From the NCBI GenBank assembly GCA_023266895.1, contig JAHFOI010000005.1, positions 1-45,438 of the forward strand: a stretch of 45,438 bases of DNA. Direction: 5' to 3'. The position numbers were made by a program, and so were the translations under genes. This DNA is from Candidatus Woesearchaeota archaeon. GTDB taxonomy: Archaea; Nanobdellota; Nanobdellia; Woesearchaeales; ARS49. Below the pieces are notes generated by a model, which ran no database searches, was not told the origin of the DNA, and saw only the letters and a list, made by a program, of their open reading frames with translations. Shown here one piece after another: positions 16,590 to 35,716 of the stretch (positions are counted from its first letter, which is position 1; every line of letters starts with the position of its first letter).

Positions 16590-16691
16590 TGAGCCCGGCC
16601 GGATTTGAACCGGCGACCAATGGTGCTCCTAGGAGCTGTTGGAAGCGCTGCCATATAAGACCATCGCTCCCCCAGGCTAAGCTACGGGCCC
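16590..16691 (-). tRNA. tRNA-Ile(UAU) with a 28-nt canonical intron
   Basis: A 102-nt gene, 74 nt after splicing. The acceptor GGGCCCG pairs with CGGGCTC (one G-U) and the discriminator is A. The anticodon stem ATGGT/ACCAT encloses CTTATA, the intron, then C. The intron (28 nt, at 37/38) forms an exact BHB: central helix CTTA/TAGG, bulges TA|T and AG|C, and an inner helix GG(c)AGC/GCTCC. Splicing gives the loop CTTATAC with anticodon UAU. The variable loop is short, which excludes Leu and Ser. A UAU tRNA reads AUA directly, whereas most archaea use a CAU tRNA modified by TiaS. The best TATA (16748-16755) lies about 60 nt upstream, implying a 5' leader. Confidence 0.9.
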
Positions 16692-16748: not shown

Positions 16749-17756
16749 TTATAAATCTGTGTGGTGTTGTTCTGGCAGGTACGCATTGTAGGTTCCTGAT
16801 TTCATGAATACTTTGTGAGGGCGTGCTGCCACGCCTTTTTGTTCATGGAGCATTTGTTCGCTGGTAAGTGCTGCAATTGCAAGAGCAACAAGCTCTCCTT
16901 TAAGAGTCATGATTGCGATGCTGGTATGGGGTTCTATGCTTGCCTCAAGTTTTGCCACGCCAGGTAAGTGCAGAGGTGCACCATTGCACAGACTTGCAAC
17001 TGCGCTGTCAAGCACCCATATTTTGGGTAAGTGTTGGCAACCAAATTCTACTGGTAAAATGTGCTTGCGTAGTAAGTCTTCTTTGTTTTGGTTTTTGTAA
17101 TACCAAACTGCATCTTCTAGTTCCTGAAGTGTTGTCCATTGGGTGTGATTAAATGGTCCTGCTTTTGTTCTAATAAGTTCTGCCATGTGCGCTCCACAAC
17201 CTATTGCGCGACCCATATCATGACAGAGTTTACGAATGTACGTGCCTGCTTCGACTCCTGCAACAAAGAGAACGTCTTGATCAATAATTTCGAGAATTTC
17301 AAAATAGTAAATGGTGCGTTCGCGCTCTTGACGTTTGACTGCTGCTTTGCGAGGCACCATTTGTGTGATGCGTCCAACAAACTTCTCGCATGCAATGCGT
17401 ATTTGTGCTTCTGAAACCTTTTTGTGAACATGCATTATTCCTACGTATTCTTTTCCTGCTGGAAGAAGAGCTTGTACAATGCGTGTTGCATTACCTAGTG
17501 CAATTGGCAGCACTCCAGTAACTGCTGGATCAAGCGTGCCTCCATGACCTGCTTTTTCTATGCCAAGAATTTTTTGCACAAAGTCACTGCATTGATGACT
17601 TGAGGGGCCTTTGGGTTTGTTAAGCACAAGAATGCCTTGTTGAATTAATTCTGGTATGGGGCGTTTGTCTGGAGCGCAACCTTGATTAGGGTCAGTGTCT
17701 GCTGAGCGTTTGGTGAGTATTTCACGGTGAACTTGTTCAAAAGGAAGAAGTGGCAT
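16749..17756 (-). CDS. cbf5: tRNA/rRNA pseudouridine synthase Cbf5 (dyskerin homologue)
   Basis: The catalytic subunit of H/ACA guide RNPs; it also modifies tRNA U55. The 335-residue protein has the TruB fold with catalytic D76 in GHGGTLDPAVTG, the VLNKPKGPSSHQ motif, the GTYIRKLCHDMGRAIGCGAHM segment and a C-terminal PUA domain (about 250-325, KIWVLDSAVASLCNGAPLHLPGVAKLE). The ATG lies about 26 nt from a TATA-like TTTTTAAAG (17778-17786), so the mRNA is probably leaderless. Its presence implies H/ACA guide RNAs elsewhere in the genome. Confidence 0.95.
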   Translation of the reverse strand: MPLLPFEQVHREILTKRSADTDPNQGCAPDKRPIPELIQQGILVLNKPKGPSSHQCSDFVQKILGIEKAGHGGTLDPAVTGVLPIALGNATRIVQALLPAGKEYVGIMHVHKKVSEAQIRIACEKFVGRITQMVPRKAAVKRQERERTIYYFEILEIIDQDVLFVAGVEAGTYIRKLCHDMGRAIGCGAHMAELIRTKAGPFNHTQWTTLQELEDAVWYYKNQNKEDLLRKHILPVEFGCQHLPKIWVLDSAVASLCNGAPLHLPGVAKLEASIEPHTSIAIMTLKGELVALAIAALTSEQMLHEQKGVAARPHKVFMKSGTYNAYLPEQHHTDL

Positions 17757-31826: not shown

Positions 31827-32279
31827 CTAAGCTTTTGTTAGCACAGTATTTGGATCCTTCCACAACAATCTACCTTGCGCAAATGCAGTGCGTTGATACT
31901 CACGCACACCAGCACGCTGTTCCACAAACTTCATGAAACACCAAAGCTTACGCATAAACTTGTTAACAGCTTCACGCTCTTGAACAAGTTCTGATTCTTT
32001 CTTGTACTGTAACAATACAATCAAATCAAGAATAGCTTCAACTTCACGAATGCTTCTATACGCGAACAATAAAAAATTCAAAAAACTACGATAGGTTCCG
32101 GCACCACTGCCTTCAGCAATATTCAATGGCAATCCAGTAACTGCACGACGCAATTGCGAAATAATGTTATTTGATTCATGAACAGGAATCTGCTCACAAA
32201 GTCTATACATCATAACAACAAGCTCTTTTGCAAGGGCATAAATTTCCAAGTCTTTGAATCTTTCGTTTATTGAAAACAT
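31827..32279 (-). CDS. Four-helix-bundle protein of the 23S rRNA intervening-sequence (S23) family
   Basis: A 150-residue helical protein. The signature FKDLEIYALAKELVVMMYRL, QLRRAVTGLPLNIAEGSG and FLNFLLFAYRSIREVEAIL matches the family first seen inside 23S intervening sequences of bacteria. Here it lies about 130 nt beyond the 23S 3' end, on the same strand. It may be read through from the rRNA operon. The pentameric family is thought to bind nucleic acid, but its function is not settled. Confidence 0.88.
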   Translation of the reverse strand: MFSINERFKDLEIYALAKELVVMMYRLCEQIPVHESNNIISQLRRAVTGLPLNIAEGSGAGTYRSFLNFLLFAYRSIREVEAILDLIVLLQYKKESELVQEREAVNKFMRKLWCFMKFVEQRAGVREYQRTAFAQGRLLWKDPNTVLTKA

Positions 32280-35549: not shown

Positions 35550-35716
35550 TGGACCCGTCGGGACTTTCGTTCATCCGTCGTCATTCGTCTATCGTCCGTC
35601 TTGTCGACGTACGACTCTGACGGGCGACTTCTGAAATTCGAACCCGAGGCCTCCCGCTTGTTTGGTCGATTGCTCGAACATGCAAAGCGGGCGCTCTACC
35701 GCTGGGCTACGGGCCC
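35550..35716 (-). tRNA. tRNA-Ala(UGC) with two introns, one in the T-loop
   Basis: A 167-nt gene in the 16S-23S spacer, 72 nt after splicing. Exon 1 is 35716-35681, intron 1 is 35680-35659 (22 nt, at 37/38), exon 2 is 35658-35637, intron 2 is 35636-35564 (73 nt, at 59/60) and exon 3 is 35563-35550. Intron 1 has a strict BHB: TTTG/CAAA, bulges CA|T and CA|A, inner hairpin with GCAA loop. Intron 2 also has a strict BHB, described in its own entry. Spliced: acceptor GGGCCCG/CGGGTCC, T-arm TCGGG-TTCGAAT-CCCGA, anticodon UGC, discriminator A. The G3:U70 pair, the identity mark of tRNA-Ala, appears only once intron 2 is removed. The D-stem has one C-A mismatch. Confidence 0.93.
35564..35636 (-). 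other. 73-nt T-loop intron of tRNA-Ala (position 59/60)
   Basis: The outer helix is the T-stem TCGGG/CCCGA. The central 4-bp helix is TTCG/CGAA, the 5' bulge AA|T and the 3' bulge AG|T, exactly the splicing-endonuclease substrate. The inner part continues TTCA/TGAA, a GAA/GGA internal loop, GTCG/CGAC and a CCGTC/GACGG stem with an inner GTCG/CGAC hairpin. Cutting after the second bulge base and joining gives the universal T-loop TTCGAAT. The intron has no ORF. Confidence 0.9.

Follow-up and report, generated by a model that had tools for sequence, protein, structure and literature searches.

Archaea are generally described as reading the isoleucine codon AUA with agmatidine (for example PMC11938285, in the part available), in a system that joins TiaS to a tRNA-Ile2(CAU). 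The closest described exceptions are N. equitans and K. cryptofilum. In the accessible text of PMC6000648, these two account for the only tRNA-Ile(UAU) genes among 167 archaeal genomes, and each is read as a species-specific gain; the portion of PMC8450103 at hand states that both organisms lack tRNA-Ile2 because they have this "Ile3"(UAU). The same portion describes a tRNA-Ile(UAU) that also replaces tRNA-Ile2(CAU) in Mycoplasma, Bifidobacterium and Neorickettsia. In eukaryotes, most tRNA-Ile(UAU) genes contain an intron (PMC11912914, in part).

Here we describe an intron-containing tRNA-Ile(UAU) gene from a Woesearchaeota genome, located in a window of 45,438 nucleotides (the whole stretch of DNA analyzed), and follow it through the phylum. 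The original prediction had set this gene beside a small number of known archaeal UAU tRNAs, in agreement with the two papers on N. equitans and K. cryptofilum. As in those species, UAU appears to take the place of a CAU tRNA-Ile2, and the K. cryptofilum gene has an intron too, as far as the available source text goes. Unlike in those species, decoding by a UAU tRNA in genomes free of TiaS looks like the rule for one phylum, recurring in other DPANN lineages and in a few Asgard archaea, and the intron has a constant G at its second position (+2). The agmatidine system performs the same task, the reading of AUA as isoleucine, and neither of its two components was found here. With the eukaryotic tRNA the archaeal genes share the UAU anticodon and an intron at position 37/38 (in 120 of 123 genes here), whereas a Pus1-family enzyme was not found in this genome. 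In contrast to the bacterial tRNA-Ile(UAU), the archaeal gene has a bulge-helix-bulge (BHB) intron, and its origin is likely to have been independent of the bacterial one. The replacement itself is therefore known, whereas its breadth and the conserved intron look new: we found no paper with a phylum-wide statement on UAU in the literature searched, which excludes subscription papers and preprints.

Structure and splice site of the tRNA-Ile(UAU) gene

The gene occupies 102 nt on the reverse strand (16590-16691), has homologues across the phylum and matches the Rfam tRNA model over its full length (RF00005, cmscan; model positions 1-71, 51.9 bits, E 2.1e-8). ARAGORN at default settings missed it, probably because of the intron. 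The precursor has an acceptor stem GGGCCCG/CGGGCUC, T8 and A9, a D arm, an anticodon stem AUGGU/ACCAU, a T arm GCCGG UUCAAAU CCGGC and discriminator A. Between the strands of the anticodon stem lie 35 nt, made up of a 7-nt loop and a 28-nt intron. From our reading of the structure, the 5' exon (16654-16691, reverse strand) comprises tRNA positions 1-37, with a pattern match at 16654-16684 that ends at A37; the 3' exon (16590-16625, reverse strand) comprises positions 38-73, and CCA is not encoded. The intron itself (16626-16653, reverse strand) starts with UGGC and ends with UAGGAG.

A canonical BHB sets the splice site. Its central helix is formed by C32-U33-U34-A35 and the intron strand UAGG (16628-16631, reverse strand), a helix also present in relatives, and it is flanked by 3-nt bulges, UA^U and AG^C. 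These bulges place the cut at 37/38, so that the spliced loop would read CUUAUAC and the anticodon, at 16655-16657 on the reverse strand, UAU. Eight registers are possible for a 28-nt intron, of which three keep UAU; the BHB fits the 37/38 register alone, and as relatives repeat the anticodon, the loop and the splice position, we rule out an alternative register. Both the anticodon and the spliced loop of the original prediction are thus confirmed, and its coordinates and strand were exact.

Unconstrained folding of the pre-tRNA returned no cloverleaf, and folding alone therefore gives no support for the gene. In relatives, compensatory changes preserve pairing: each of the five pairs of the anticodon stem is kept in 95 or 96 of 96 sequences, and each of seven pairs in the acceptor stem in between 93 and 96 of 96. 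Judged from this recurrence and from the compensatory changes, the gene and its intron are far from chance. In many relatives, an additional intron interrupts the T loop of tRNA-Ile(UAU) (L042, L049, L062, L132, L146, L165-L167, L176, L178, L190, L193, L194 and L196).

The predicted pathway is short. The splicing endonuclease would recognize the BHB and remove the 28-nt intron at 37/38, exposing the UAU anticodon, which could pair with AUA by ordinary Watson-Crick pairing, so that neither agmatidine (TiaS), lysidine (TilS) nor a CAU tRNA-Ile2 would be needed. The mature tRNA would presumably be charged with isoleucine and read AUA. An unmodified U34 may also read AUG, and a further device is therefore to be expected: AUG reading could be limited by modification of U34, or by discrimination at the synthetase or the ribosome.

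Absence of TiaS and TilS and the tRNA set of the genome

The original prediction had raised the possibility that this lineage lacks TiaS, and had proposed to look for a second isoleucine tRNA with a CAU anticodon. Searches with the TiaS model (PF08489) were negative in all 57 genomes of the order, this one included, and in all 371 genomes of the phylum, of which 243 have a completeness of 90% or more and a contamination of 5% or less; the four archaeal controls were positive each time. TilS likewise did not exceed its curated cut-off in any of the 57 genomes of the order, which rules out the lysidine route. TilS-like proteins did score below the cut-off in 40 of the 57, including our genome, where the best reached 56.9 bits, short of the required 93.6. 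Since the four archaeal controls also gave sub-cut-off matches to the TilS model, these proteins look like ordinary archaeal paralogues.

The genome (1,087,575 bases in 52 contigs, 100% complete) yielded 43 tRNAs with the tRNA model at E values up to 0.001. Read with introns in mind, they include Ile(GAU), Ile(UAU) and two tRNAs with the anticodon CAU. Of the latter, one shows the A1-U72 pair typical of initiators and the other is the sole elongator-like one, which leaves none spare for Ile2; no third CAU tRNA, and thus no tRNA-Ile2(CAU), was present among the 43 detected. A strict CAU-tRNA pattern with the common D arm found one copy in this genome. This CAU pattern was single in 83 of the 85 genomes positive for it and double in two (G004 and G288). 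The codon in question is in regular use: AUA makes up 188 of 730 isoleucine codons in 33 open reading frames of the window and is about as common as AUG.

The inventory is not exhaustive, since tRNAs for Lys(UUU), Thr(UGU) and Arg(CCG) could not be located in the genome even at E 10. In all, five expected tRNAs escaped the model at E 0.001, and for two or more of these the cause was an extra intron; Ala(UGC) and Ser(UGA) were first missed because of T-loop introns, that of Ser(UGA) by our own reading. It is thus possible that extra introns also conceal a CAU tRNA-Ile2 in this genome, in which no known modifying enzyme for it was found. These misses and the sub-cut-off TilS-like proteins are what favor the view that the UAU copy is dead or of minor importance and that AUA is read mainly by an overlooked CAU tRNA-Ile2, served by an unrecognized or horizontally acquired enzyme. 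The phylum-wide lack of TiaS matches, the nearly always single CAU pattern and the TilS background in the controls all speak against it, as do the covarying stems that the UAU gene has kept. We consider this explanation highly improbable.

A spliced UAU anticodon, no TiaS gene and no detected tRNA-Ile2(CAU) were thus found together, as in the Ile3(UAU) replacement and not as in the agmatidine system. We conclude with high confidence that this is the gene of a functional tRNA-Ile(UAU) of the Ile3 type, which would make TiaS, TilS and a CAU tRNA-Ile2 unnecessary for the reading of AUA.

Several other tRNA genes are of separate interest. The tRNA-Ala(UGC) gene in the 16S-23S spacer of the window (35550-35716, reverse strand) scores just 22.5 bits with the tRNA model and by our reading has two introns, which interrupt its anticodon loop and its T loop. 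A tRNA-like sequence elsewhere in the genome (L038, G000:C19:2456-2545) would acquire the anticodon AUA by canonical splicing and has a poor BHB. A second His(GUG)-like tRNA gene (L040, G000:C12:19635-19717) has weak stems.

Distribution of tRNA-Ile(UAU)

A strict pattern for the 5' half of a UAU tRNA matched in at least 210 of the 371 phylum genomes. This figure is a lower bound because the UAU tRNA of a genome without a strict match (L053, from G029) was missed through an extra intron in its D loop. The reversed pattern, used as a control, matched in one genome (G197). In a species-representative collection with bacteria included, a pattern that combines UAU with an intron starting TGRC was found in at least 113 stretches; among the matches listed, all 80 loci are titled as archaeal and belong to DPANN lineages, plus one Lokiarchaeon. 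Through 32 of these 80 named loci we reached 32 further genomes, titled as Lokiarchaeota, Aenigmatarchaeota, Micrarchaeota, ainarchaeum, Nanohalarchaeota, Altiarchaeota and others, and TiaS was found in none of the 32.

The Asgard phylum is divided. TiaS was found in 81 of its 148 genomes and the strict UAU pattern in five, none of them among the 81 that are positive for TiaS. This distribution hints that the two are mutually exclusive there (p 0.017, from five cases and ignoring kinship). In the 67 Asgard genomes without a TiaS match we observed the strict UAU pattern in only the same five, and 62 have neither.

These results support the suggestion that the lineage lacks TiaS and show that the original prediction understated the case, as a UAU tRNA without TiaS is found phylum-wide and again in further DPANN lineages and in a small number of Asgard genomes. 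By these data a whole phylum departs from the agmatidine rule, probably together with much of DPANN, and Asgard archaea are split in their possession of TiaS.

A conserved intron at position 37/38

An intron at 37/38 is present in 120 of the 123 UAU tRNAs that we read. The 123 5' halves represent 45 families by our count and came from searches without an intron requirement: 26 are the window gene and its BLAST relatives, 30 came from the strict pattern scan and 67 were fetched from further matches of that scan. The 26 were found with the intron-bearing window gene as the BLAST query, which may favor introns; the other 97 were not. We left the 80 loci of the TGRC-intron scan out of this count because that pattern itself demanded an intron; a ratio that takes them in, 88 of 91 UAU tRNAs with an intron, is set aside together with its p-value. 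All three genes without an intron (L078, L080 and L081) belong to a single genus, g212, and a fourth species of the genus (L079) has kept it. Loss in three species and retention in one make this genus a natural test of intron function.

Intron length ranges from 17 to 81 nt in the 96 cases with the whole tRNA parsed; the intron of L155 has 24 nt in one reading, and another reading of 45 nt looks too long. G is invariant at +2 and at -3 in all 120 introns of the phylum set, and 89 of the 120 start with NGRC (7 of 22 in a single large family, 82 of 98 among the rest). The G at +2 pairs with position -7 in 91 of 93 introns, which explains its constancy in part. The five Asgard UAU introns, from a search that imposed no intron, start with TGAC, AGAC or AGGC, and our script defined the 3' splice site poorly in all but one. 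As a control, we examined 128 tRNAs of other kinds from loci that these searches had given. Thirty of these have an intron, with G at +2 in 11 of the 30 and a TGRC start in one. Elongator tRNA-Met was read in 29 cases, 10 of them with an intron. None of our p-values takes phylogeny into account.

One account of this conservation is inertia: the intron would be kept for no reason of its own, and the shared G at +2 would reflect common descent together with the inner helix of the BHB. Archaeal tRNA introns are inherited, the +2 G has its partner at -7 in nearly every intron examined, and the intron was lost in three of the 123 copies, all of which is consistent with this account. Against it, length and most of the inner sequence have diverged, yet 120 of 123 genes in 45 families keep the intron; other tRNAs from loci of these searches have introns far less often, with the G at +2 in 11 of their 30 introns, and elongator tRNA-Met also has one less often. 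We regard inertia alone as quite possible, if short of probable. The near-universal intron and its invariant G suggest that the precursor may also be a substrate in some step beyond splicing, a suggestion that lies outside the high confidence we attach to the decoding role. The conserved intron is the part of the system that most deserves experiments. The data raise a testable question: how does a UAU anticodon spare methionine codons in cells rich in AUA, and is this the reason for the conserved intron?

By eye we saw no box C/D guide in the UAU introns. Among the ten elongator tRNA-Met introns, all checked, three (L101, L116 and L117) have box C-like and box D-like sequences. In these three, a segment complementary to the anticodon loop of tRNA-Met lies just upstream of CTGA, where it is placed to guide 2'-O-methylation of C34.

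Pseudouridylation and neighboring genes

In yeast, the intron of tRNA-Ile(UAU) is required for Psi34 and Psi36 (PMC11912914 and PMC9602550, each in the part available). Two results speak against a simple reading of this dependence. Red-algal Pus1 made these pseudouridines in some precursor forms only, according to the accessible text of PMC9602550, and S. cerevisiae with intron-less tRNA-Ile(UAU) genes showed no misreading of AUG as a consequence, according to that of PMC11912914. By analogy with yeast, the archaeal intron could serve pseudouridylation of U34 and U36 by a Pus1-type enzyme, in a system homologous to the eukaryotic one. The TruA/Pus1 family (PF01416) turned up in a single genome out of 100 from the phylum, and our genome was negative. 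The model finds 12 of 14 controls and misses two, so the case for absence is strong, if not total. We consider a Pus1-type enzyme acting on the intron-containing precursor very unlikely, and any modification served by the intron would need a different one.

The simplest extra role for the intron would still be modification of the anticodon before splicing, as in eukaryotes, by a different enzyme. A fuller version of this proposal is that an intron-dependent tRNA-Ile(UAU) took the place of the agmatidine system throughout DPANN and in part of the Asgard archaea. The intron, its G at +2 and its usual GRC start would then have been retained for the sake of a non-Pus1 or RNA-guided enzyme that acts on the precursor and, by modifying its anticodon, secures the reading of AUA and not AUG; the eukaryotic form could descend from this arrangement or parallel it. 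We offer this tentatively and think it, taken whole, rather doubtful. The archaeal genes in any case bear on the origin of the intron-containing tRNA-Ile(UAU) of eukaryotes.

The tRNA is preceded, at a distance of 57 bases and in the same orientation, by a gene for a Cbf5-like pseudouridine synthase (16749-17756, reverse strand), a proximity that looked suggestive. Among 215 loci searched by tblastn, Cbf5 was found in the tRNA's locus only in L041 and L245, which come from the genus of our genome and look like one locus, and in L259. The linkage of Cbf5 to tRNA-Ile(UAU) is thus local. Elsewhere in the window, an open reading frame adjoining the 23S gene (31827-32279, reverse strand) belongs to the 23S rRNA-intervening sequence protein family (PF05635).
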